Below, one piece after another: positions 1,245 through 30,656 of a stretch of DNA of 42,620 nt; the first letter of the stretch is position 1; each line of letters starts with the position of its first letter. The notes below the pieces were generated by a model. The model was not told the origin of the DNA. It saw only the letters and a list, made by a program, of their open reading frames with translations, and searched no databases. The stretch lies in the NCBI GenBank assembly GCA_016218495.1, contig JACRDU010000074.1:1-42620 (forward strand). Direction: 5' to 3'. The position numbers and the translations under genes were made by a program. The stretch comes from Elusimicrobiota bacterium. Lineage in GTDB: Bacteria; Elusimicrobiota; Elusimicrobia; UBA1565.

Positions 1245-1954
1245 CCCCGGCCGTCCGCGCGTCGCGCGCGCTGGCCGGCGCGGCCGGCGTCCTGCGCTTC
1301 GCGCCTCCGGTCGCCTTCGTCTACAACCCCCTGGAATACGCCTGGGAGCCCCATCGCGCCTACCTCGAGCGTTGGGGGCGGGGGCCGCGCGAGGTGCTCC
1401 TGCTCGGCATGAACCCCGGACCCTTCGGCATGGCCCAGACCGGCGTCCCGTTCGGGGAGGTGTCCTTCGTGCGGGACTGGCTGGGGGTGTCCGGGCCCGT
1501 CGGCAGACCGCCCCGGGAATGCCCGCGGCGCCCGGTGTCGGGCTTCTCCACCCGCCGCAGCGAGGTCAGCGGGGCGCGCCTCTGGGGCTGGGCCAGAGCG
1601 CGCTTCGGCGCGCCGGAGCGCTTCTTCGAACGCTTCTTCGTCCTGAACTACTGCCCGTTGGCGTTCATGGACGAGGGGGGGCGCAACCTGACGCCCGACA
1701 AGCTGCGGGCCGGCGAGAGGTCCGCGCTCGAGGCGGTCTGCGACGAGGCCCTGCGGGCGATGGCCCGGCATTTCCGCCCGGAGCTCGTCGTCGGGGTGGG
1801 GAAGTTCGCCGAGGCGGCCGCGCGGCGCGCTCTGGCGGGCAGCGCATGCCGGGTCGGAAGCATCCTCCATCCGAGCCCGGCCAGCCCGGCGGCGAACAAG
1901 GGCTGGGCCGCGGCCGCCGAGCGGCAATTCGCCGCCCTCGGCGTGCGGCTCTAG
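1241..1954 (+). CDS. SMUG1-type uracil-DNA glycosylase
   Basis: Predicted base-excision repair enzyme that removes uracil and oxidised pyrimidines from DNA. Motif 1, GMNPGPFGMAQTGVPFG at residues 56-72, is essentially the SMUG1 signature, with the water-positioning Asn in MNPG. Motif 2, HPSPASP at 210-216, corresponds to the SMUG1 HPSPRNP loop with its catalytic His. The 237 residues match the family. I chose the GTG at 1241 because it overlaps the pilT stop as GTGA and precedes the conserved region by 55 residues; the frame is also open further upstream but that part only mirrors pilT. The 3' end shares the palindrome CTAG with the convergent kinase gene, each strand reading TAG as stop. SMUG1 is less common in bacteria than family 1 or 4 uracil glycosylases. 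Confidence 0.9.
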   Translation: MTPAVRASRALAGAAGVLRFAPPVAFVYNPLEYAWEPHRAYLERWGRGPREVLLLGMNPGPFGMAQTGVPFGEVSFVRDWLGVSGPVGRPPRECPRRPVSGFSTRRSEVSGARLWGWARARFGAPERFFERFFVLNYCPLAFMDEGGRNLTPDKLRAGERSALEAVCDEALRAMARHFRPELVVGVGKFAEAAARRALAGSACRVGSILHPSPASPAANKGWAAAAERQFAALGVRL

Positions 1955-3447
1955 GACTCCTTCACCGCATCGAGGGCGGCGCTGAACTCCGCGCCGGAGT
2001 GGAACCTGTCCTTCGGGTCGGGGGCGAGGGACCTCGCGATGACCGCGTCGACGGCCGGCGTGAGCTCGGGGGCCAGGCGCGAGGCAGGGGTGTAGATCCT
2101 CTCGCGCTTCTGGGCCAGGAAGTTGGGGCCGGTGAACGGAATCTGGGTCGTCAGCATCTCGTAGAGGCACACCCCGAGCGAGAAGAGGTCCGTCTCGCGG
2201 CTGGCGTGCCCGAGCTCCTGCTCGGGGGCCATGTAGGGCGGCGTCCCCCACGCCGCGGTCCGGGTCGCCTTGGCCACCGTGAGCTTGGCCTGGTGGGCGA
2301 TGCCGAAATCCATGACCTTGACCGCGCCGCCCCGGCCCACCATGATGTTCGACGGCTTGAGGTCGCGGTGGATGACCTTGCGAGAATGGGCGTAGTCGAG
2401 CGCGGACGCGACCTGGCGCACGACGCCCTTCGCCGAGTGGAGGTTCAGGCGCTGGCCATTCCCCAGGAAGGAGGAGAGCGGGCGCCCCTCCACGTATTCG
2501 AACACGAGGTGGAGGAGGCCGCCTTCGCGCAGGATGGAGTGGATTTCGACGATGTGGGAGTGCTTGAGCTGGGCGACGAGGCGCGCCTCGTTGACGAACA
2601 GCTCCAGGTCGTGGCCGGCGTTGAGGAGGTCGTCGGTCATGCGCTTGATGGCGACCTTGCGCTGCAGCGTGAGGTCCACCGCCTCGTACACGACGCCCAT
2701 GCCGCCGCGGCCGAGGATCCGCTCGATGCGGTAGTTCGAGCCCAGCACGTCCCCCGCCCTGCCTTCGGACGGGGGGGAAGGGGCGGGGAGGGCCGCGGGG
2801 GAGGCTCCGCCCGGGGCGGTCCGGGGCGAGGCCGTCACCATGACGGTCGGATGGCCCGCGGGGACCCGCATGTAGAACAGCAGGCCGATCAGGACGGTCA
2901 GGGCGGCCCCGACGATGGAGGTCCCGATGATCCAGCGCTGGCGCGTGTCGTAGGCCTGCAGCGCCGCCCGGTACTTTATCTCGTCGGCGGCGCGGGAGCG
3001 CTCGACGCGCTCGTGGAAGCCGCGCGCCATCCGGCCGAACTCCAGCGCGTCGTTGTACTGGAAATAGGCGGATTCGACCCCGGGAGGCAGGCCTTTCCCG
3101 CTGGTGAAGGCCTGGATCATCACGGCGATGCTGCCGACGTCGGCGTTGGCCCGCAGGGTGTTGAACTCGTCTTCGATCTGGGAGTAGTGGTCGAGGTCCT
3201 TGCTCAGGTCGTTCTGGAGCACGGCGCGGTTCGCGAAGAGCGGGCGGGGGTCCTTCGCCTGCGCATAAGCCTCGGACAGGCGTTCCAGCGACGACAGCTT
3301 GGGCTCCATCACCGTCATTAGGGACTCGATCTCCGAGCGCAGCACGGCCATGCGCTCGCGGGAGGGGTCCTGCGCGGGCTGGGCGTCGGCCGCCCGCGCC
3401 CAGGGGAGCGGGAGCAGGAGGAGGGCGAGCAGGAGCGTCGGCTGCAT
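1951..3447 (-). CDS. Membrane Ser/Thr protein kinase with N-terminal periplasmic region
   Basis: Hanks-type kinase of 498 residues with an unusual order. Residues 1-20 form a signal peptide or signal anchor (Leu-rich, ending ARA-A). Residues 21-168 are a charged, mostly helical region of no recognised family. A transmembrane helix spans about 170-193. A Pro/Ala/Gly-rich linker leads to the kinase domain at about 238-495. Kinase motifs are intact: LGRGGMGVVYEA glycine loop, VAIKR lysine, HRDLKPSNI near 357, DFG near 379, and an APE motif. The catalytic domain is therefore expected in the cytoplasm with the N-terminal part outside, the reverse order from PknB-type kinases, whose kinase domain is N-terminal. 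It is the last gene of a crcB-DUF190-kinase run, three bases after DUF190. Substrate and signal are unknown. Confidence 0.88.
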   Translation of the reverse strand: MQPTLLLALLLLPLPWARAADAQPAQDPSRERMAVLRSEIESLMTVMEPKLSSLERLSEAYAQAKDPRPLFANRAVLQNDLSKDLDHYSQIEDEFNTLRANADVGSIAVMIQAFTSGKGLPPGVESAYFQYNDALEFGRMARGFHERVERSRAADEIKYRAALQAYDTRQRWIIGTSIVGAALTVLIGLLFYMRVPAGHPTVMVTASPRTAPGGASPAALPAPSPPSEGRAGDVLGSNYRIERILGRGGMGVVYEAVDLTLQRKVAIKRMTDDLLNAGHDLELFVNEARLVAQLKHSHIVEIHSILREGGLLHLVFEYVEGRPLSSFLGNGQRLNLHSAKGVVRQVASALDYAHSRKVIHRDLKPSNIMVGRGGAVKVMDFGIAHQAKLTVAKATRTAAWGTPPYMAPEQELGHASRETDLFSLGVCLYEMLTTQIPFTGPNFLAQKRERIYTPASRLAPELTPAVDAVIARSLAPDPKDRFHSGAEFSAALDAVKES

Positions 3448-3450
3448 CTA

Positions 3451-3804
3451 CTAGCGGCGCCGTTTCGGGCCGGGCCCGGCCCGGTACATGACCACGTGGA
3501 CCTTTTCGATGGTCACAAGGCCGTCGGTCACCATCGTGTCGAGGCGTGGGAGGAGCTTGGCGATGTTCTCCTGGGTATCGACGACCTCGACCACGATGGG
3601 CAGGTCCTCGGAGAGGTCCAGCAGCTTCGCGGTGTGGACGTGGGCGTTGCGGCCGAAGCCCATGAAGCCCTTGAGGACCGTGGCCCCGGCCAGGCGGAGG
3701 GAACGGGCTTCCTCGACGATGGCCTCGTAGAGGGGGCGGCCCTTCCACGCGTCGCTCTCCCCGATGAACACCCTGAGCAGCCTCTGGTCGCCTTCCAGCT
3801 TCAT
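3451..3804 (-). CDS. DUF190 family protein (PII-like fold)
   Basis: A 117-residue protein of the DUF190 family, small PII-like ferredoxin-fold proteins often encoded next to CrcB/FluC fluoride channels. The N-terminal strand with LLRVFIGESDAWKGRPLYE and the following ATVLKGFMGFG segment are typical of the family, as is the C-terminal DGLVTIEKVHVVMY strand. The gene starts 11 bases after the crcB stop and is followed three bases later by the kinase gene, so the three are probably co-transcribed. The association with crcB suggests a regulatory or accessory role in fluoride export, but the family's biochemical function is unsettled. The basic tail KRRR is not conserved in any way I can judge. 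Confidence 0.88.
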   Translation of the reverse strand: MKLEGDQRLLRVFIGESDAWKGRPLYEAIVEEARSLRLAGATVLKGFMGFGRNAHVHTAKLLDLSEDLPIVVEVVDTQENIAKLLPRLDTMVTDGLVTIEKVHVVMYRAGPGPKRRR

Positions 3805-3814
3805 CGTCCCTCCA

Positions 3815-4189
3815 TCAGACGGCCCCGCCCAGGATGGCGCCGAGGCGGAAGAGCAGGAACCCCAGCACGCCGCTGCCCAGGTAGTTGAACAGGGCCTTCA
3901 GCGCCTGTCCGTCGGCGGCCAGGTTGGCCGTCTCCAGGATCAGGGTCGAGAACGTCGTGAAGGCGCCGCAGAACCCGGCCATCAGGAACAGGCGGGCGGC
4001 CGGACCCAGGGCGAACTTGACCTCGGCCAGGGCGTTGAAGAGGCCGATGAGGAAGCAGCCGGAGAGGTTGACGGCGAAGGTGCCCCAGGGGAAGGCCGTT
4101 CCGGCGGCCGCGTAGACGCCCTGCGCGACCAGGACCCGGGCCCCGCCTCCGAGGACGAAGCCGGCCAACAGGCTCAGCCAACGCGACAT
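3815..4189 (-). CDS. crcB: CrcB/FluC fluoride channel
   Basis: Small inner-membrane protein (124 residues, four hydrophobic helices) that forms dual-topology dimeric fluoride channels and relieves fluoride toxicity. The family core GFCGAFTTFST and the VNLSGCF element (conserved Asn in helix 2) are present. Two in-frame ATGs exist, at 4201 and 4189. I chose 4189 because it gives the normal family N-terminus and because TATGAT on the minus strand (4202-4197) ends seven bases before it, matching the leaderless promoter pattern seen at many genes here. The ATG at 4201 would start inside that hexamer. There is no room upstream for a fluoride riboswitch: only 35 bases separate this start from the divergent ettA start. 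Confidence 0.93.
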   Translation of the reverse strand: MSRWLSLLAGFVLGGGARVLVAQGVYAAAGTAFPWGTFAVNLSGCFLIGLFNALAEVKFALGPAARLFLMAGFCGAFTTFSTLILETANLAADGQALKALFNYLGSGVLGFLLFRLGAILGGAV

Positions 4190-4196
4190 GGGAGCA

Positions 4197-4218
4197 ATCA
4201 TACATAGATTGCTAGAAT
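4197..4218. promoter_or_regulatory. Back-to-back -10 elements for crcB and ettA
   Basis: On the minus strand TATGAT (4202-4197) lies seven bases before the crcB ATG at 4189. On the plus strand TAGAAT (4213-4218), preceded by an extended -10 TGC, lies six bases before the ettA ATG at 4225. The two hexamers are ten bases apart. Both transcripts would begin at or within a base or two of the start codon. No -35 consensus is visible for either, and a -35 for one would fall on the start site of the other. Confidence 0.6.
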
Positions 4219-4224
4219 GTCCGC

Positions 4225-5913
4225 ATGGCCACCACCGTCGACACCAAGCAGATCATCTTCTCCCTCATCGACATCTCCAAGATCTACCCGCCCAAGCGGC
4301 AGGTGCTCAAGGACATCCACCTCTCCTTCTACTACGGCGCCAAGATCGGCCTCATCGGAGACAACGGTTCGGGGAAGTCCACGCTGCTCAAGATCATCGC
4401 CGGCATCGACTCCGACTGCAAGGGAGAGATCACTCGCTCCAAGGGCTACGAGGTGGGCTTCCTCGAACAGGAGCCCAAGCTCGACCCCGAGAAGACCGTC
4501 AAGGAGATTGTCGAGGAGGGCGTGGCGTCGACCAAGGCCCTCCTCGCCGAGTACGACGCGGTCTCCAACTCCTTCACCGACGACATGGACCCCGACGCGA
4601 TGGAGAAGCTGCTGGAGAAGCAAGGCAAGCTCCAGGAGAAGATCGAGGCCGTCGGGGCCTGGGAGCTCTACAACAAGCTCGAGCGGGCGATGTACGCCCT
4701 GCGCTGCCCTCCGAGCGACCAGAAGGTCGCCACGCTGTCGGGCGGCGAGAAGCGCCGCGTGGCGCTGTGCCGCATGCTGCTGCTCAAGCCCGAGATCCTC
4801 CTCCTCGACGAGCCCACCAACCACCTCGACGCGGAGAGCGTGGACTGGCTCGAGCACCACCTGCGCAACTACGAGGGGACCGTCATAATCGCCACCCACG
4901 ACCGCTACTTCCTCGACCACGTCACCGAGTGGATCCTGGAGCTGCGCGGCGGGATGGGCTACCCCTTCAAGGGCAACTACGCCTCATGGCTCGAGCAGCG
5001 CCAGGCGCGGCTCGCCCAGGAGGAGAAGGAGGCCTCCAAGTTCCGCAAGACCATCGAGCGCGAGCTCGAGTGGGTGCGCTCGGGGGCCAAGGGCCGCCAA
5101 GCCAAGTCCAAGGCGCGCCTCTCCGCCTACGAGGACATGCTGAAGGCCTCGCCGGAGGACACCGAGCGGGAGCTGCAGATCTACATCCCTCCGGGGCCGC
5201 GCCTGGGCGACGAGGTGATCACGCTGGAGAAGGTCACCAAGTCCTTCGGGGACAAGCTCCTGTTCGACGACCTCACCTTCCGGGTCCCCCGCGGAGCCAT
5301 CGTCGGCATCGTGGGGCCCAACGGCGCGGGAAAGACCACGCTGTTCCGGTTGCTGACCGGCCGGGAGAAGCCCGATTCCGGGAAGATAACCCTGGGCGAG
5401 ACCGTCAAGTTCTCCTATGTGGACCAGGAGCGCTCGGCCCTGCCAGCCGGCAAGAACCTCTGGGAGGCGGTCACCGACGGCCTCGACAAGGTCTCGCTGG
5501 GCAAGAAGGAGATCAACTCCCGGGCCTATGTGGCCAACTTCAACTTCACCGGCCCCGACCAGCAGAAGCCGGTCGAGAGCCTCTCGGGCGGCGAGCGCAA
5601 CCGCGCCCACCTCGCGCGCATGCTGCGCGACCCCGGGAACGTGCTCTTGCTCGACGAGCCGACCAACGACCTCGACATCCATACCCTGCGGGCCCTCGAG
5701 CTGGGCCTGGCGAACTATGCGGGCTGCTGCATCATCATCAGCCACGACCGCTGGTTCCTCGACCGCCTATGCACCCACATCCTCGCCTTCGAGGGCGAGA
5801 GCACGGTGCGTTTCTTCGAGGGCGGCTGGACCGACTACGAGGAAGACCGCAAGAAGCGCCTAGGCGAGGACGCCCGCCCCCGCCGCATCCACTACAAGAA
5901 GCTCTCCCGCTGA
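4225..5913 (+). CDS. ettA: EttA, ABC-F translational throttle ATPase
   Basis: ABC-F protein of 562 residues with two ATPase domains, closest in layout to EttA, which binds the ribosomal E site and gates the first elongation step according to ATP/ADP level. Domain 1 has Walker A GDNGSGKST near 44-52, signature LSGGEKRR near 172 and LLLDEPTNHLD near 192-202. The linker (about 240-320) holds the charged helices with KFRKTIERELEWVRSG, typical of EttA. Domain 2 has GPNGAGKTT near 364, LSGGERNR near 453 and LLLDEPTNDLD near 475. The N-terminal YPPKRQVLKDI also resembles EttA. It has no transmembrane part. The transcript is predicted to be leaderless. The stop is followed after one base by the inverted end of the transposon. 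Confidence 0.93.
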   Translation: MATTVDTKQIIFSLIDISKIYPPKRQVLKDIHLSFYYGAKIGLIGDNGSGKSTLLKIIAGIDSDCKGEITRSKGYEVGFLEQEPKLDPEKTVKEIVEEGVASTKALLAEYDAVSNSFTDDMDPDAMEKLLEKQGKLQEKIEAVGAWELYNKLERAMYALRCPPSDQKVATLSGGEKRRVALCRMLLLKPEILLLDEPTNHLDAESVDWLEHHLRNYEGTVIIATHDRYFLDHVTEWILELRGGMGYPFKGNYASWLEQRQARLAQEEKEASKFRKTIERELEWVRSGAKGRQAKSKARLSAYEDMLKASPEDTERELQIYIPPGPRLGDEVITLEKVTKSFGDKLLFDDLTFRVPRGAIVGIVGPNGAGKTTLFRLLTGREKPDSGKITLGETVKFSYVDQERSALPAGKNLWEAVTDGLDKVSLGKKEINSRAYVANFNFTGPDQQKPVESLSGGERNRAHLARMLRDPGNVLLLDEPTNDLDIHTLRALELGLANYAGCCIIISHDRWFLDRLCTHILAFEGESTVRFFEGGWTDYEEDRKKRLGEDARPRRIHYKKLSR

Positions 5914-5914
5914 C

Positions 5915-5949
5915 AACGGTGTCAGACATTCGGAACTTTCGGAAGTTCC
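5915..5949. repeat. Terminal inverted repeat, 3' arm of the transposon
   Basis: It begins AACGGTGTCAGACATTCGG and contains AAC where the opposite arm has TAG. It starts one base (C) after the ettA TGA and includes the hairpin described for the whole element. Confidence 0.85.
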
Positions 5950-5997
5950 GAGAGCCGCGAATATCGGGAGTCTGAGTTTCGGCGACGGCCGACGCGC

Positions 5998-6816
5998 CTA
6001 TGGGTTGATGTGGGAATGGGCGCTGCTGGGGCAGATGCCCAGGAACGCGGCTATCTCGGAGACCCCATAGCCTCTGGCGGCGGCCCGCAGGCAGAACGCC
6101 CGGCGCGCATCGCTCACCCCATGGGTTCTCGTTCTGCTCCGCAGATGCGGGAAATCGATGCCGGTGGACCCGATGACATCCTGCGCGATGTCGGCAAGGG
6201 ACGGGCGGGCCGCCTCCTGGCGCGGACGGACTATTGTTCCCGGTTCGTCATCGTAGCTGGGTTCGAATTCCAGATCGCTCGTGGCGAGCAAAATTTTGTA
6301 GCGGCGGAGCGCTGATTTCTTATCGCGGCCAAGCAGCGAGAACAGCTCATCGAGTGCGAGCATGCTTGAATGGATGGGCCCGACGACTTGGGAATGGCTG
6401 CTCCAGGCCCATTCTGCAGGGTCGGCGACAAGCCCGGCTTTGACAGGGTTGTTGGGGATGTAGGCGAGGACGTTCCGGAGATAGGGTTTGTCCGTAATGA
6501 CCTTCGACTTGAAGCGGCCTTGGAAGACATGACCTAGGCGCCCCCGATGTTTGTTGAAGGCCTTGGCATACCGGGTCTCGAGGCGCTGCATGATGTTGGA
6601 GAGCGAGATGAGGCCGACTTTGACCAGGAGGTGAAAGTGGTTGACCATCAGGCAGTAGGACAGCAGGCACGCCCCGGTCTTGCGAAGCACGTCGTCTAGG
6701 ATGCCGAGGGAGAGAAGGTTCTCCTGCGGGTTGCCGAATATTTCTTGGCTGCCATTGCCCTTCCCCGTCACATGGTTGAGCGATTCCGGCGTGTGGACTC
6801 TCAATAGTCTCCCCAT
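5998..6816 (-). CDS. REP-associated tyrosine transposase (Y1, IS200-like)
   Basis: A 272-residue HUH-type single-strand transposase of the TnpA_REP/RAYT branch. The N-terminus has the family pattern MGRLLRV...LNHVTGKGN; the metal-binding HUH motif is in MVNHFHLLVKV, near residues 58-68. The presumed nucleophile Tyr lies in the helix with YLRNVLAYIPNNPVKAGL. After about residue 190 comes a linker and a C-terminal helix-turn-helix-like segment (RGYGVSEIAAFLGI...SAHSHI) reminiscent of the DnaA-like tail found in some of these proteins. The coding sequence is visibly less GC-rich than its neighbours, consistent with transfer. The reading frame is intact, so it may still be active. Such transposases are usually single-copy genes linked to short palindromic repeats rather than classic insertion sequences. 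Confidence 0.9.
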   Translation of the reverse strand: MGRLLRVHTPESLNHVTGKGNGSQEIFGNPQENLLSLGILDDVLRKTGACLLSYCLMVNHFHLLVKVGLISLSNIMQRLETRYAKAFNKHRGRLGHVFQGRFKSKVITDKPYLRNVLAYIPNNPVKAGLVADPAEWAWSSHSQVVGPIHSSMLALDELFSLLGRDKKSALRRYKILLATSDLEFEPSYDDEPGTIVRPRQEAARPSLADIAQDVIGSTGIDFPHLRSRTRTHGVSDARRAFCLRAAARGYGVSEIAAFLGICPSSAHSHINP

Positions 6817-6863
6817 GAAGCTAGTACGTTTGAGGGGGGAAAATGGTTCCCTGAAAGTGAGAG

Positions 6864-6898
6864 GGAACTTCCGAAACTACCGAATGTCTGACACCGTT
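6864..6898. repeat. Terminal inverted repeat, 5' arm of the transposon
   Basis: Read on the minus strand it begins AACGGTGTCAGACATTCGG followed by TAG. The tetranucleotide GTAG (minus strand 6880-6877) is the type of guide sequence known next to REP hairpins. The rfbH frame reads straight into it and ends on this TAG. Confidence 0.85.
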
Positions 6899-13801: not shown

Positions 13802-14835
13802 GCGGGGCCCATGACGGCGCGGGCCATGCGCGCGGTGTTGCGCGCGTCGTCGAGCCCCCGATGGTGCGCGCCTTCCAGCGGGAGGCCGAGGAGCTCCAGC
13901 GCGCGCTTCATGGTCGGGGGCTCGACCTTGCGCGCCTCCGCGAAGCGCTGGCGAAGGTCGACATGGGACTCCAGCGCAGGCGGGAGCGGCACGCCGTGGC
14001 GCCGGCAGTCCGAGCGCAGCTGGCGAAGGTCGTAGGTGCTCCAGGAGGCGTAGCGAATCGGGCCGGGCCCGCCCCAGTCGGCGAAGGAGGCGAGGACGGC
14101 GGGGTACTCCTGCGCTGCGTCCACCTCCTCCTGGCGGATGCCGGTCAGGCGCAGGCAGAAGGGGCTCAGCGTGGGCTCGTCCTTGGGCCGGATTAACCTC
14201 TGGAACTCGCTGACGGCGGCGAAGTCCGCCCCCAGGCGGACCGCCCCGATCTCGATGGTCTCCTGGCGCTCCAGGACGGTCCCGGACTCCCAGCAGGTGG
14301 CCTCCAGGTCGAAGACCACCAGCGGCGCCTTGCTCCAGCGCCAGGCGCGTTCCAGGGCCGAGGAGACGAACTCCGACTTGGACGCCGTGTAGCGGGCCCG
14401 GTCGTTGTGGAAGCGGTCGGCCAGCCCGCGCTTGAGCGTCTCATACGCCCGGGCGTCCTCCGCGGCGGCGCGCATGTAGTCCCTGAACACGACCTGCTTC
14501 CACCAGAAGTCGCCGCCGGTGCGCACCCAATGCAGGTGGTGCGTGGGGGGGGAACCCTTGCGGAAGAAGTGGCGTCCGGGGATGCCGTATTCCCCCAGGT
14601 AGCGGTAGCCCCTGGCGGCCAACGGGCCGACCACCGTATCGTCGACGACTAGGTCTTCGACCCCGACCATGATGTCTATGGTGGGCTTGGCGGCCATGCC
14701 CGGCACGGCGGTGGAGCCGATGTGCTCGACCTGTCCGATGCGGCCGCCCAGCTCGGCGCGCACGGCGTCCCGCTCCGCCGCGAAGGCGGCCGGCCAGCCG
14801 GCGTCGTAGGAGGACAGCTCGATCAGGTCGTCCAC
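13798..14835 (-). CDS. GrpB-like domain fused to a DEDDh 3'-5' exonuclease
   Basis: A 345-residue two-domain protein. Residues about 1-165 are a GrpB/UPF0157 nucleotidyltransferase-fold domain, with HIGSTAVPGMAAKPTIDI near 37-54 and HHLHWV later. Residues about 172-345 are an ERI1/KapD-like exonuclease: VVFDLEATCWE carries the first Asp-Glu pair, a central Asp lies in STYDLRQL, and HRGLDDARNT near 325 carries the catalytic His and last Asp. The GTG start at 14835 is chosen because TATCCT ends six bases upstream and the GrpB domain begins there; the longer frame overlaps the divergent regulator. GrpB domains occur fused to CoaE in some bacteria, but a fusion to an exonuclease is one I do not know. 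An RNA end-processing role is a guess from the domain types. Confidence 0.85.
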   Translation of the reverse strand: MDDLIELSSYDAGWPAAFAAERDAVRAELGGRIGQVEHIGSTAVPGMAAKPTIDIMVGVEDLVVDDTVVGPLAARGYRYLGEYGIPGRHFFRKGSPPTHHLHWVRTGGDFWWKQVVFRDYMRAAAEDARAYETLKRGLADRFHNDRARYTASKSEFVSSALERAWRWSKAPLVVFDLEATCWESGTVLERQETIEIGAVRLGADFAAVSEFQRLIRPKDEPTLSPFCLRLTGIRQEEVDAAQEYPAVLASFADWGGPGPIRYASWSTYDLRQLRSDCRRHGVPLPPALESHVDLRQRFAEARKVEPPTMKRALELLGLPLEGAHHRGLDDARNTARMARAVMGPA

Positions 14836-14841
14836 GCCGGA

Positions 14842-14892
14842 AGGATAGCCGTCTTGGGGAGGGCGCGCCAGGGGCGGCCCGTTTGGTATCCT
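14842..14892. promoter_or_regulatory. Divergent -10 elements for the GrpB-exonuclease and the sigma54 activator
   Basis: TATCCT occurs on the minus strand at 14847-14842, six bases before GTG 14835. It also occurs on the plus strand at 14887-14892, six bases before ATG 14899, where it is preceded by TGG (extended -10). No Shine-Dalgarno lies between either hexamer and its start. Confidence 0.55.
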
Positions 14893-14898
14893 AGCCCC

Positions 14899-16065
14899 AT
14901 GGACGCGGACCGGCCGCTCATCCTCGTCGTAGAGGACCAGGCGAACCATCGCAAGGTGCTGAAGGCCTTCCTGGAGGCCCAGGGCTGGGCCGTGGAGCTG
15001 GCCAAGGACGCGCGCGAGGGGGCCAGCGCCCTCGAGAAGAAGCCCGCGTTGGTCCTGACGGACCTCAAGATGCCGGGGGGGGACGGCCTGGGGCTTCTGC
15101 GGGACTCCAAGAAGCGCCTCCCCGCCGTCCCGGTCATCCTCATGACTGCCTTCGGCTCCGTCCCGGACGCCGTGGAGGCGATGCGGGCCGGCGCCCACGA
15201 CCTCCTGCCCAAGCCCCTCGACTTCGACGAGCTCAAACGCGCCGTGGGCCAGGCCCTGGCGGCCAGTTCGCTGGCGTCCCGCGAGTGGGTGATGGCGCCC
15301 GCCGGGGGGGAGCGGCCCCTCATCGGCGCCAGCCCGGCCATGGAGAAGGTCTATGCGCTCATCCGCAAGGCCGGCCCCTCCGACGCCACCGTCCTCATAC
15401 TCGGGGAGACTGGGACGGGCAAGGAGCTGGTGGCGGCCGCGCTGCACACCTCCGGCCCGCGGCGCGAGGGTCCCTTCGTCAAGGTCCACTGCGGGGCGGT
15501 CCCCGAGGACCTGCTGGAAGCCGAGCTCTTCGGCCACGAGAAGGGGGCGTTCACCGGCGCGCTGCGCGAGAAGCCCGGGAAGTTCGAGCTGGCCGACGGC
15601 GGGACGATCTTCCTCGACGAGGCCGGCACGATGAGCCCGCGCATGCAGGTGAAGCTCCTGCGCGTCCTGCAGTCGGGCGAGTTCGACCGCGTCGGAGGGA
15701 CGGGGACCCTGAAGGTGGACGTGCGCGTGGTCGCCGCCACCAACGCCGACCTCAAGAAGGCCGTCTCAGAGGGCAGGTTCCGCGAGGACCTCTACTACCG
15801 CCTCAACGTCGTCCCCATCCTGCTCCCGCCGCTCAGGGACAGGCGCGAGGACATCCCGGAGCTGACCCGATTCTTCCTGGCCCGGGCGGCCGAGAAGCAC
15901 TCCCGCCCCGCTCCGGTGCTGGCCGCCGACGCCATGCAGGCGCTGATGGCCGCCCGCTGGGAGGGGAACGTCCGGCAGCTGGAGAACCTCATCGAGCGCC
16001 TGGTCGTCCTGGCGGACGGCTCCTCGATCGCCCGCGCGGACATCCCCGACGAGGCCCTGACGTGA
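14899..16065 (+). CDS. NtrC-family response regulator without a DNA-binding domain
   Basis: A 388-residue sigma54 activator. Residues 1-120 are a receiver domain with the phospho-acceptor Asp near 54 ([11 protein letters not shown]) and Lys in LPKPLDF. The AAA+ domain follows, with Walker A GETGTGKE near 169-176, the sigma54-contacting loop GAFTGA at 216-221 and [14 protein letters not shown] later. The protein ends with ADIPDEALT, immediately after the AAA+ lid, so the Fis-type helix-turn-helix normally needed to bind enhancer DNA is missing. The end is not a truncation by frameshift that I can see: the stop overlaps the next gene as GTGA. Domain-deleted activators such as FlgR of Helicobacter work from solution. 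The ATG at 14899 has TATCCT six bases upstream. Confidence 0.92.
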
Positions 16066-17324: not shown

Positions 17325-19589
17325 CTAGTCGACGAGGATGGAGGGCTCGGCGAAGCGGGCCCGGTTCCGTGACGCCTCGCCGATGAAGGCCCCGTCGCCC
17401 AGGTCCTTGTTGAGCAGCAGGCGCGCCGTCACGTCCTTCTCGCCTTTGCGCCCCTTCTCGACGTTCACGAAGAACTCCCCGGCTACGTCGGCGGGGTCGG
17501 CCATCTGGACGAGCACCTTCATCGCGGCCTCATAAGCGAGGCCGGCCCGGCCGTCTCCCGCCATCACTTCGAGGAACAGCTTCGCGCGGTCCTCGGGGGA
17601 CGCCGCGGCCCGGGCCTTGGCGAGGTCCTGGATGAGGCCCGTGGCGGTCTGGGCCAGTTGGGAGAGTTCGCTGAGCGCGCCCGAGGCGTTCTCGTCGCGC
17701 CAGCCGTCGTATCCGAGGGCCTTCAGCGCGTCGCGCTCGCGGTAGGAGACCTTTCCGCCCTCTTCGATGCGGAGCAGCGGCAGCACCCGCTTCATCAGCT
17801 CCTGCTCGGCGTAGCCGAGGGCGTTCACATACGAGCGCAGGACGACGTCGGCCGGCGCGCTGACGATGTCCTCCACCGCCTTGCGGCCGAAGACGAGGGT
17901 GAAGGCGGAGATGCCCCGGTGATAGGTCTTCTCCGTGGGGCCGGTGTCCGTGTCGCGGGGGCCGTGGTCGGCGGCCGGCACGGTGAGGCTGTCCTTGGGG
18001 AAGAGCGTCTCGACGGGGAGGGCCGCGCCGTCGTTGGTCCCGTTGCCGCGGGTGCCGATGAGGCGCGTGATGGCGTCGGCTTCCTCCGCCATCCCCCGGG
18101 CGGTGCCGGCGCCGGAACGCAGGAAGCCTTCCTGCCTGAGGAAGACCGCGACGGGCTCCTTGGAGTTCCCCGCGGCGTCGCGGTAGGTCATCACCTGGGC
18201 GGTGCGCTGGGTGTTGTGCTTGTTCATCTCGCCGAGGAAAGGGACGTCGAGCCAGCCGGTCTCCTTGCGCTTGTCCGCCTTGTGGACCTCGTATTGCCCG
18301 CCCGTCTCATCGACGATGAGGACCGTGTCGCGTTCGCGTCCGGAGTTGTTCTCATGGTCGACCAGGATGGGCAGCTTGAACCAGAAGCGCGAGTTCCGGC
18401 GCTCGTAGTCGTCGGCTCCGACGAAATCGGGGCGCCGCCCGAGCTCCTGCGAGTGCCGGTCGACGACCTCGCCGGCCTCCTCCTCGGCGCGGCGGTCTCC
18501 GTTGAGGGCCCGGCCGGCCTTGGAGAGGAGGTCCCACAGCAGGGAGAGCGCGTTGAGGTCGCCGCGCATCAGCTGGCGCAGGGCGGTCATCTGGGCCTGG
18601 TCGCGCGGGTCGAGGATGAACTCGATGAGGATCATGCGGCCGGTGCGCTTGGGCTGTGCCAGGCCGATGCGGGCGGTCAGGTAGCGCGAGAGCGACCGGG
18701 CGACCTGGCGGTTGACGAGCTTCACGAGCTGCTCGACGATGATGGTGTCGACCTCCGGGAAGCCCAGGGCGGCCCCGGGGATGGAATAGACGACCTCGCC
18801 CCCGCGGTTGCGGATGTCGGCCTTGTCGATGCGCAGGCGGAACCGGACCTGGTCTTCGGACAGGCGGAACAGCGTCGCCGAGACCCGCCCTTCCTTGCCG
18901 CGGCCCAGCGAGATGGAGGCGGGCAGCTCGCCCAGCGAAGCGCCGATGCCGGCCCCGATGTGAAGGGTGAGAGGGATGCGCCAGAGCTCGCCCACCTGCA
19001 TGCGGGCGACGCGCTCGGCGGAAAGCGGGAGCGCGGCCTTGAAGTCGAAGACGTTCACGAGGCGTTTGACCTCGTCGCACGACTTCTTGGTGCCCAGGGG
19101 CCGGATGACGGCCGATTCCCCGCTGACGCTGGCGCCGACGCTGAGGCCGACGCCGCCCACGGCGTCCTGGAAAAGGCTCTGTCCCAGCCCGAGCGAGAGG
19201 TCGAGGGAGGCGCGGTCGACGAGGGCGAAGGTCCCCGCCGCGGTGCGCTGGAGCTCGCGGTTGACGGTGACGCCGGCTCCACCCACGCCGTCGACCGCGA
19301 CGGACTGCCGGTGCTTGAGCTTGATGTTCTTGCAAATCTGGTCGAAGGCGTTGTTCTGCAGGCGGTCCCAGAAGCCGGAGCGTTCGGGGGCGCCGGGGTT
19401 GGTGTCGCCGGGCTCTTCGTCGGGCGCGGCGGGCTGCCAGCCCTTGGCCTCGCCCTTGACTTCCGGGACGACGAGGGGGGAGAAGGCCGGGGCCTTGCCG
19501 CGCCTCCCTTCGAACAGGCCGCCGACCTGGGCGGAGGTGGGGGCCGCGGCGAGCAGGGCGCAGAGGGCTGCGGCGAGGGGTCTGAGCAT
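17325..19589 (-). CDS. Large secreted protein of unknown function
   Basis: A 754-residue protein that I do not recognise. Residues 1-21 form a signal peptide (MLRPLAAALCALLAAAPTSAQ). The region about 90-230 alternates short Gly-rich strands (LSLGLGQSLF, VGLSVGASVSG, LHIGAGIGASLGE), suggesting a beta-sheet shell or barrel-like part. A middle segment has VEQLVKLVNRQVARSLSRYL, then an acidic linker. The C-terminal third is helical (LSELSQLAQTATGLIQDLAKA). No lipobox and no second membrane segment are visible. The start at 19589 is preferred over 19622 because it begins the signal peptide and because a perfect TATAAT ends seven bases upstream. It is likely periplasmic or outer-membrane associated. 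Nothing in the neighbourhood hints at a pathway. Confidence 0.75.
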   Translation of the reverse strand: MLRPLAAALCALLAAAPTSAQVGGLFEGRRGKAPAFSPLVVPEVKGEAKGWQPAAPDEEPGDTNPGAPERSGFWDRLQNNAFDQICKNIKLKHRQSVAVDGVGGAGVTVNRELQRTAAGTFALVDRASLDLSLGLGQSLFQDAVGGVGLSVGASVSGESAVIRPLGTKKSCDEVKRLVNVFDFKAALPLSAERVARMQVGELWRIPLTLHIGAGIGASLGELPASISLGRGKEGRVSATLFRLSEDQVRFRLRIDKADIRNRGGEVVYSIPGAALGFPEVDTIIVEQLVKLVNRQVARSLSRYLTARIGLAQPKRTGRMILIEFILDPRDQAQMTALRQLMRGDLNALSLLWDLLSKAGRALNGDRRAEEEAGEVVDRHSQELGRRPDFVGADDYERRNSRFWFKLPILVDHENNSGRERDTVLIVDETGGQYEVHKADKRKETGWLDVPFLGEMNKHNTQRTAQVMTYRDAAGNSKEPVAVFLRQEGFLRSGAGTARGMAEEADAITRLIGTRGNGTNDGAALPVETLFPKDSLTVPAADHGPRDTDTGPTEKTYHRGISAFTLVFGRKAVEDIVSAPADVVLRSYVNALGYAEQELMKRVLPLLRIEEGGKVSYRERDALKALGYDGWRDENASGALSELSQLAQTATGLIQDLAKARAAASPEDRAKLFLEVMAGDGRAGLAYEAAMKVLVQMADPADVAGEFFVNVEKGRKGEKDVTARLLLNKDLGDGAFIGEASRNRARFAEPSILVD

Positions 19590-19596
19590 GGAGAAA

Positions 19597-19602
19597 ATTA
19601 TA
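19597..19602 (-). promoter_or_regulatory. Perfect -10 of the large secreted protein gene
   Basis: TATAAT on the minus strand (19602-19597) ends seven bases before ATG 19589, implying a leaderless or nearly leaderless mRNA. The divergent region up to 19699 also holds a small hairpin, GGCCC/GGGCC with loop CGAA (19648-19661), of unknown role. Confidence 0.6.
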
Positions 19603-19688
19603 GACCGGCCGGGGTCCGTCACGGCAGGTCTTTCGGTCTTTAGAAACGGCCCCGAAGGGCCTATATTGTTGAAGCGGCCGCCGCGTGG

Positions 19689-19694
19689 TAAGAT
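19689..19694 (+). promoter_or_regulatory. -10 of the nitrilase gene
   Basis: TAAGAT preceded by TGG (extended -10) ends five bases before ATG 19700. TATATT at about 19662-19667 is an alternative further upstream. Confidence 0.45.
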
Positions 19695-19699
19695 GGGCC

Positions 19700-20518
19700 A
19701 TGGACCGATTGCCCCTTTTCGTGGAGCCCGTCCCGCTGGACCTGGCTTGGAAGGACCCCGGCGCCAACCTGGACGCGATGGAGGCGGAAATCCGCCGTCG
19801 GCTCGCGGCCGCGCCCGAGGTCCCTCCGGAGTCCGTGCTCTTCCTCTTCCCCGAGATGACGCTGACCGGTTTCGTGACGAAGGACCCCCACGCCTACGCG
19901 GTCGAGCCGCCGGCCCCGCCGGTGGCCGCCCTGCGCGCCCTGGCGAGGCGCCTCAGGACGGGCATAGCGGCGGGGTTCCCGGAAGTGAACCGGGAGGACC
20001 GTCGCAAGCCCCTCAATACCCTGGCCGTGGTGGCGCCCGACGGCGAAATCGCCGGCCTCTACCGCAAGACGCATCTCTTCACCTGGGGGGCGGAGCCGGA
20101 GTCGGCATGCTATGCGGCCGGGGAGAGCGGGACCCTGTTCGACTACCGCGGCTGGAAGGTGGGGCTGGCCATCTGCTTCGACGTGCGCTTCTCGGCCTTG
20201 TTCCACGCCTATGCGAAGGCCGGCGCCGACCTCGTCCTCGTCTCGTCGAACTGGGTGGGGGGGCCGCACAAGACCTACCAGTACCGGACCCTGTGTTCGG
20301 CGCACGCCATCCTCACTCAGGCCTTCGTGGCGGCTGTGAACCGCGCCGGGCGCGACCCGGCCTGGGAGTACGACGGGTCCAGCTATGTCTTCGCGCCCAC
20401 CGGCGAGGACATCTATAAAGGAAGCCCTTGCCGCCTCGACCCCGCCGTCATCGCCGCCGTCCGAAAAATGGCCGTCCGCGTCGCCGACAGACCCATAACG
20501 GTGTCAGACTTTCGGTAG
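19700..20518 (+). CDS. Nitrilase-superfamily carbon-nitrogen hydrolase
   Basis: A 272-residue amidase or nitrilase-fold enzyme with the complete catalytic set: Glu52 in FPEMTLTGF, Lys123 in YRKTHLF, and Cys159 in AICFDVRF. The family hydrolyses carbon-nitrogen bonds of amides such as omega-amides or carbamoyl compounds; the LFTWGAEP and SSNWVGGPHKTYQY segments resemble omega-amidase-like members but do not fix the substrate. An in-frame GTG at 19685 exists, but 19700 fits the leaderless promoter. The last codons (TVSDFR) and the TAG stop belong to the inverted end of a 78-bp mobile-type repeat, so the native C-terminus has been replaced. Confidence 0.9.
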   Translation: MDRLPLFVEPVPLDLAWKDPGANLDAMEAEIRRRLAAAPEVPPESVLFLFPEMTLTGFVTKDPHAYAVEPPAPPVAALRALARRLRTGIAAGFPEVNREDRRKPLNTLAVVAPDGEIAGLYRKTHLFTWGAEPESACYAAGESGTLFDYRGWKVGLAICFDVRFSALFHAYAKAGADLVLVSSNWVGGPHKTYQYRTLCSAHAILTQAFVAAVNRAGRDPAWEYDGSSYVFAPTGEDIYKGSPCRLDPAVIAAVRKMAVRVADRPITVSDFR

Positions 20519-28878: not shown

Positions 28879-29670
28879 TTAGGCGCTGAGGGCGTCGCCG
28901 ACGCGCAGCACGCCCTCGGACACAGGCACCAGGTTCATCCCGAACAGGACTCCGCCGCCGCGGCGGCGGAAGCCGGCCAGGGTCTTGAGCGGCTCGGCCC
29001 CGGATTCGCCGGTGCGCGGGTCGACCGTGGTGATCGCGCAGCGTTCGCAGGGCTTCGCCGCCCGCAGCGCCACGCCTCCCGCCCTGAGCACCGACCACGC
29101 GTCTTCGCTCCAGGCCGGGCCGCCCCGCACGACGATGTTGGGCCGGAAGCGCTCCGGTTCGAAGGTCCTCCCGGCGCGCCTGCCGAGATCGGCCAGGGAC
29201 TCCTCCGTGACGGCCAGCAGGGGGAACCCGTCGGCGAAGGCGGTCCAATCCCCGGGCCGCCCATAAGGCTCCTCGAGGCGCCGGCGGAAACCCGGGGCGA
29301 TGCGGGCCAGGCGGCATGGCGCGCCGATGGCCGCCGTCAGCCAGGCCGCGGCGGCGTCCCCCTCGTCGAGCGCCGCGCAGGCGTCGCCCCAGACGCTGGC
29401 CGTCACTCGGGCCCGCCCCGGCGCCTCCAGAGAGACGGCCAGGTCGGGGCGTCCCGCGGCGCTCAGGGTCAGGGCGGCCTCAGCGAGGCGGCAGGCGATG
29501 AGGCACATCCGCGGGTGCTTGCGTTGGCTGAGGAAGACCCCGTCCGGGCCGACCACGACCCACTCCCGGTCGAATCTAGGGCCTCGGAACCCGACGCTCA
29601 GGCTGTCCGACTCGATGCCCGCCAGGGACTTCACGGGATAGACGAACAGCCTGGAGACGCTGAGGCCCAT
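28879..29670 (-). CDS. MOSC domain protein (YcbX-like)
   Basis: A 263-residue protein with an N-terminal MOSC beta-barrel (VSRLFVYPVKSLAGIE) and a C-terminal MOSC domain. The conserved Cys lies in KPCERCAITTVDPRTGE, as in YcbX/mARC-type molybdenum-cofactor enzymes that reduce N-hydroxylated compounds. RFRPNIVV and LFGMNLVP also fit the family. No ferredoxin domain follows, unlike E. coli YcbX, so an external electron donor would be needed. The ATG at 29670 is preferred to the one at 29688 because TAGAAT ends seven bases before it and the conserved N-terminus begins there. It is divergent from pip. Confidence 0.9.
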   Translation of the reverse strand: MGLSVSRLFVYPVKSLAGIESDSLSVGFRGPRFDREWVVVGPDGVFLSQRKHPRMCLIACRLAEAALTLSAAGRPDLAVSLEAPGRARVTASVWGDACAALDEGDAAAAWLTAAIGAPCRLARIAPGFRRRLEEPYGRPGDWTAFADGFPLLAVTEESLADLGRRAGRTFEPERFRPNIVVRGGPAWSEDAWSVLRAGGVALRAAKPCERCAITTVDPRTGESGAEPLKTLAGFRRRGGGVLFGMNLVPVSEGVLRVGDALSA

Positions 29671-29677
29671 GCCGGGG

Positions 29678-29699
29678 ATTCTAGCCAAAATGATATGTT
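29678..29699. promoter_or_regulatory. Back-to-back -10 elements for the MOSC gene and pip
   Basis: TAGAAT on the minus strand (29683-29678) ends seven bases before ATG 29670. TATGTT on the plus strand (29694-29699), preceded by TGA, ends six bases before GTG 29706. The hexamers are ten bases apart and the starts 35 bases apart, the same geometry as at crcB/ettA. Confidence 0.55.
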
Positions 29700-29705
29700 C
29701 GCGCC

Positions 29706-30656
29706 GTGACCAGAGAGCTATACCCCGAAATCGAGCCGTACCGCGAAGGCATGCTGAAGGTCTCCGAACTCCATTCCATCCATTGGGAGGAGTGCGGGAA
29801 CCCGGACGGCAAACCCGTCGTATTCCTTCACGGCGGGCCCGGCGGGGGCATCGACCCCTCGCACCGGCGCTACTTCGACCCGAAGCGCTGGCGCGTCATC
29901 CTATTCGACCAGCGCGGCTGCGGGAAGTCCACGCCCTACGCGGAACTGCGCGAGAACACCACCTGGGACCTGGTGGCCGACATCGAGAAGCTCCGGACCT
30001 TCATGGGGGTGGAGCGCTGGGTGGTCTTCGGCGGCTCCTGGGGCTCGACCCTCGCCTTGGCCTACGCCCAGACGCATCCGGCCCGCGTGAAGGCCCTGGT
30101 ACTGCGCGGCATCTTCACCCTGCGCCGGCGCGAGCTGGAGTGGTTCTACCAGGACGGGACCAGCCTGCTCTACCCTGACGCCTTCGAGCCCTACCGGGAC
30201 CACATCCCGGCGGCGGAGCGCGGCGACCTCATGGCGGCCTACCACAAGCGGCTGACCTCCGACGACCGGGCGGTGCGCATGGCGGCTGCCAGGGCCTGGT
30301 CGGTGTGGGAAGGGGCGACGAGCAAGCTGTTCCCGGACCCCGCGCTGATGGCGAAGTTCTCCGAGGACCGCCATGCCGAGGCGTTCGCGCGCATCGAGTG
30401 CCACTACTTCGTGAACAAGGGCTTCTTCGAGCGCGACGACCAGCTGCTGGCCGACGCGGGCCGCCTCAAGGGCATCCCGGGCGTCATCATCCACGGCCGC
30501 TACGACGTGGTCTGCCCGTTCGAGACGGCGTGGCTGCTCAAGAAGGCCTGGCCGGACGGGGAGCTCCTGATATCGGCCGACTCCGGCCACGCGATGGCCG
30601 AGCCGGCCAACCGCACCGCGCTGCTCGACGCCACCGACCGCTTCGCGGCGCTCTAG
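29706..30656 (+). CDS. pip: Proline iminopeptidase
   Basis: An alpha/beta-hydrolase of peptidase family S33 that releases N-terminal proline from peptides; 316 residues. The oxyanion region HGGPGGG is near residue 40. The catalytic triad is Ser111 (GGSWGS), Asp267 (RYDVVCP) and His295 (SGHAMA). DQRGCGKSTP and the helical cap region with WEGATSKL are typical of this enzyme. The start codon is GTG, six bases after the -10 hexamer and with no Shine-Dalgarno, pointing to a leaderless mRNA. It converges on the phosphate transporter gene ten bases further on. Confidence 0.95.
   Translation: MTRELYPEIEPYREGMLKVSELHSIHWEECGNPDGKPVVFLHGGPGGGIDPSHRRYFDPKRWRVILFDQRGCGKSTPYAELRENTTWDLVADIEKLRTFMGVERWVVFGGSWGSTLALAYAQTHPARVKALVLRGIFTLRRRELEWFYQDGTSLLYPDAFEPYRDHIPAAERGDLMAAYHKRLTSDDRAVRMAAARAWSVWEGATSKLFPDPALMAKFSEDRHAEAFARIECHYFVNKGFFERDDQLLADAGRLKGIPGVIIHGRYDVVCPFETAWLLKKAWPDGELLISADSGHAMAEPANRTALLDATDRFAAL

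Follow-up and report, generated by a model that had tools for sequence, protein, structure and literature searches.

Two outward -10 elements in the 35-bp gap between crcB and ettA of an Elusimicrobiota genome: very likely overlapping promoters for leaderless mRNAs

In E. coli and other prokaryotes, bidirectional promoters share or overlap a single symmetric -10 element, and their start sites lie mostly 10, 18 or 23 bp apart (PMC12825309). For five of them in E. coli, whose start sites are separated by 10–23 bp, the two directions competed only once transcription was increased (PMC12825309). Leaderless genes carry a different published signature, TANNNT about 6–7 bp before the start codon (PMC3160421, PMC12340547), and such TA-led genes are best known in Actinobacteria and Deinococcus-Thermus (PMC3160421, PMC12340547, PMC3898074). 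The divergent genes crcB and ettA described here share features with both systems. Like bidirectional promoters, their predicted promoters point outward and are too close for simultaneous binding by two polymerases; unlike them, the gap holds two separate -10 hexamers 10 bp apart with predicted starts about 35 bp apart (PMC12825309), and it thus falls outside the strict definition, in which one symmetric -10 is shared. In common with known TA-led genes, crcB and ettA have TANNNT at 6–7 bp, no Shine-Dalgarno sequence, a high-GC genome and coexistence with Shine-Dalgarno-led genes, whereas they differ in belonging to Elusimicrobiota, in start sites that are predicted from sequence and in a signal that most genes of the genome lack. 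In the literature searched, we found leaderless genes reported for no member of Elusimicrobiota, which is not proof of absence; beyond the locus itself, the point of wider interest is the predicted use of leaderless transcription by part of this phylum.

The stretch of DNA analysed here (the window, 42,620 nucleotides) is contig C38 of a 4.15-Mb genome in 165 contigs, and the nearest relatives that bear names are Elusimicrobia MAGs. The features at and around the gap are as follows.

1951–3447, minus strand: serine/threonine kinase gene (PF00069)
3451–3804, minus strand: DUF190 gene, directly downstream of crcB (PF02641, 136.8 bits)
3815–4189, minus strand: crcB, fluoride channel family (PF02537, 82 bits; TIGR00494, 75.1 bits, below the cutoff of 80.45); starts in relatives align to 4189
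4193–4213, no strand assigned: inverted repeat AGCAATC-N7-GATTGCT, with a weak extension to 4185–4221 (12 of 15 pairs)
4202–4197, minus strand: TATGAT, putative -10 hexamer of crcB, 7 bp from the ATG
4213–4218, plus strand: TAGAAT, putative -10 hexamer of ettA, 6 bp from the ATG and preceded by TGC (extended -10)
4225–5913, plus strand: ettA, energy-dependent translational throttle protein (ABC-F), 562 aa (TIGR03719, 885.6 bits, cutoff 806.75; NF008775, 879.7 bits)

The sequence at 4185–4230 is GACATGGGAGCAATCATACATAGATTGCTAGAATGTCCGCATGGCC. The start codons of crcB (4189–4187, minus strand) and ettA (4225–4227, plus strand) enclose a gap of 35 bp (4190–4224), within which the two hexamers point outward with 10 bases (4203–4212) between them. 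Both genes have the TANNNT placement of leaderless genes. The ettA hexamer is an extended -10 (TGC-TAGAAT), whereas that of crcB has no TGn extension. On both strands, no match to a -35 partner was found for either promoter, and no GGAG-like Shine-Dalgarno core was found in AGAATGTCCGC before ettA or in GATTGCTCCC before crcB. The usual distance from a -10 element to the start point is 7 bp. RNA starts would be expected at about 4225, the A of the ATG, for ettA, and at about 4190/4189 for crcB, where 4190 is one base before the ATG. The preliminary description of this DNA had read two outward -10 elements at 7 and 6 bp, 10 bases apart, from the 35-base gap and had seen no space for 5' untranslated regions, and the sequence bears it out on these points. 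Its term "mirror-image" holds only loosely, since the two hexamers differ in spacing (7 and 6 bp) and the sole real dyad (4193–4199/4207–4213) is out of register with them. An in-frame ATG at 4201 was considered as the crcB start and disfavoured: in four relatives (G019, G018, G035 and G020) the first residue of CrcB aligns with 4189, and with a start at 4201 the -10 would lie across the start codon.

Genome statistics were obtained from 949 kb (0.95 Mb) of stretches from the same genome, comprising 727 genes. Genes and starts were predicted with a simple purpose-written codon-usage gene finder, not a published one, and TANNNT was counted at each distance from the predicted start codons. The hexamer stood at exactly 6 bp in 70 genes and at 7 bp in 30 genes, compared with about 3 genes per position elsewhere or further upstream. 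Taken together, 100 of the 727 genes (13.8%) had it at 6–7 bp against 7.4 expected (1%), about 13 times the background, and at these rates any one such hexamer has a chance of about 7% of being spurious. About one gene in seven had a -10 in the leaderless position, rising to one in five where at least 20 bp were free upstream; most genes were without the signal. Alignment of the upstream sequences gave an extended -10 motif, TGC-TA[TG]AAT, with a faint TTG-like signal near -35, which by its sequence is a normal sigma-70-type promoter so positioned that transcription would begin on the start codon. Shine-Dalgarno-like cores preceded 20% of genes, indicating that the genome mixes both modes. The ettA -10 matched the genome motif at the same place, and the crcB spacing of 7 bp was the second commonest in the genome. 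Judged by sequence, a -10 placed 6–7 bp upstream is the leaderless signature and is genome-wide here, a point missed in the preliminary description, so that the absence of a 5' untranslated region is normal in this genome. Such an element also helps start-codon annotation, because it marks the true start. Within this genus the enrichment was about 13-fold in G000 and about 20-fold in G001 (19% of genes), and it was also clear in G010 (14%, about 8-fold). It was weak (2- to 4-fold) in three other genomes, and G143, of another family, showed no clear enrichment (7 against 5.0 expected).

Based on the roughly 13-fold enrichment of TANNNT at 6–7 bp, each of the two hexamers is very probably a real promoter element. 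The ettA element could be followed in relatives. Across the three genomes of the genus, and in many further members of the order, a hexamer stood 6–9 bp before the ettA start, again with no Shine-Dalgarno sequence; examples are TTGCTATCAT (G001, G004), TTGCTAGACT (G002) and TTGTTATGAT (G003), and TAGAAT or TATAAT in G010, G018, G007 and others. From these comparisons the ettA promoter appears to be old, being conserved in relatives with other neighbours. Other relatives have ettA directly after a same-strand gene, and the family of G143 has three or four ettA genes with purine-rich, GGA-containing leaders instead. Four genomes of genus g5 (L034, L035, L037, L038) have ettA starting about 14–21 bases past a same-strand tRNA-Met gene, so that the ettA mRNA may receive its 5' end through processing of the tRNA.

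The crcB side of the gap, by the same comparisons, appears to be lineage-specific. In G002 of the same genus (L057), the same kinase gene (833–2416) faces ettA (at 2814) with no crcB–DUF190 between them, indicating that the pair was either gained in this lineage or lost in that of G002. Conservation of the 35-base gap in relatives, proposed earlier as a check, fails: crcB lay beside ettA in 0 of 38 relatives, among which no divergent pair with the same neighbours and a similar gap was found, and the two genes do not form a conserved unit. DUF190 follows crcB directly in the loci of 12 relatives, and orientation and spacing predict that the two genes share an operon here. CrcB was about 61% identical to several copies from family f2 compared with 50–54% to same-genus copies, which had no DUF190 in the fetched loci, and the CrcB tree, with weak support, did not group the three copies of the same family (f1). 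Horizontal acquisition of crcB–DUF190 stays a suggestion, as the tree is too weakly supported to prove transfer.

The gap is very likely made up of two overlapping outward sigma-70-type promoters, each giving a leaderless mRNA that would start on the start codon or no more than one base away. Under this model, ettA would have an old extended -10 promoter retained in relatives; only in this lineage would crcB–DUF190 lie between ettA and an ancestral kinase gene, and crcB would use TATGAT on the opposite strand of the same short gap. Such tight packing would be possible because leaderless genes need no 5' untranslated region, with the upstream contacts of each polymerase falling on the start region of the neighbour. 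We would expect little or no competition between the promoters unless one were strongly activated.

A stronger claim, in which the gap works as a bidirectional switch with mutually exclusive firing, polymerase on one promoter blocking the other and fluoride export being coupled inversely to EttA, is improbable in our view. Start sites predicted about 35 bp apart imply overlapping RNA polymerase footprints, as expected from general knowledge of promoter footprints, and mutual exclusion is sterically plausible. However, even at the shorter start-site distances of the E. coli bidirectional promoters (10–23 bp), no competition was seen at the basal level (PMC12825309), and the crcB–ettA pairing is conserved in none of the 38 relatives. 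A regulatory switch is thus possible but unlikely. We also know of no functional link between crcB and ettA.

The packing of other divergent genes bears on the same question. Leaderless-type hexamers were present on both sides in 21 of 84 divergent pairs when nearby alternative starts were allowed. The tightest gaps were 19, 23, 33 and 35 bp, several of them built alike, with the -10 elements overlapping, nearly adjacent or 8–10 bp apart. The crcB–ettA pair belongs to a class of such pairs in its genome, where its gap is ordinary and of known kinds, and the compact arrangement is probably not a special switch. It is conceivable, though doubtful, that in this subgroup of Elusimicrobiota an expanded leaderless transcription packs divergent promoters into gaps of 19–45 bp where polymerases compete, giving a genome-wide antagonistic control undescribed in the phylum. 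Three more divergent pairs with leaderless-type -10 elements on both sides lie in the window at 14835–14899, 19589–19700 and 29670–29751, the last only with an alternative start. Elsewhere in the same genome (L071, 7511–7549), a divergent pair has a perfect palindrome, ATTGTATACAAT, formed by two abutting opposite-strand TACAAT -10 elements, which comes close to the shared -10 bidirectional promoters of E. coli.

It is also unlikely that ettA alone has a promoter here, with crcB–DUF190 transcribed from elsewhere or weakly and TATGAT a chance hexamer. The crcB-side promoter is the less certain of the two in sequence, having neither a TGn extension nor a -35 match (the latter also missing on the ettA side), and its hexamer has no orthologous promoter or conserved counterpart for comparison. 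Against a chance origin, TANNNT at 6–7 bp is expected in about 1% of genes but seen in 13.8%, and crcB has no upstream gene on its own strand from which it could be read.

We give equally little credence to the dyad AGCAATC-N7-GATTGCT (4193–4213) as an operator through which a repressor would shut off both promoters together. The dyad fills the interval between the hexamers, touches both and, falling outside both RNAs, could act only as DNA. Compared with shuffles, with 733 upstream regions of real genes and with the genome as a whole, it was not convincing: an equally good perfect arm occurred in 1–2% of shuffles and 4.5% of the real upstream regions (2.6–4.5% for a dyad as good), the genome held no other exact copy and a single one-mismatch copy (near the control count), and the conserved extended -10 of ettA, TTGCTA, accounts for most of the right arm. 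The dyad was thus neither clearly above chance nor repeated across a regulon, and no operator is claimed.

The preliminary description had seen no space in the gap for a fluoride riboswitch, an element commonly linked to crcB in other bacteria, and the absence was confirmed: at gathering cutoffs no Rfam family was found in the window, and the fluoride riboswitch (RF01734) had no match in the window, the locus region or the whole genome. Among the 38 relatives, 15 have RF01734, and in seven fetched loci it lies about 13–40 bases upstream of crcB, but no match was found in this genus, represented by three genomes. The present locus resembles riboswitch-controlled crcB loci in its DUF190 gene directly after crcB, an order of genes shared with relatives from the same order, and differs in that its genome has no RF01734 match, whereas in relatives such as G027, G036 and G037 a riboswitch immediately precedes crcB. 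It is an example of a fluoride exporter gene without the riboswitch that is present in relatives. In two genomes of the same family (G004 and G007; L130 and L132), fluoride riboswitches were present and no CrcB was found with this query; these riboswitches may control another fluoride exporter.

On the far side of ettA, the window contains a pair of 35-nt inverted repeats (5915–5949 and 6864–6898, 94% complementary), the first of which begins just past the ettA stop codon. Between them sits an open reading frame on the minus strand (5998–6816), which may encode a REP-associated-type transposase, and the whole segment (5915–6898) looks like a small mobile element.
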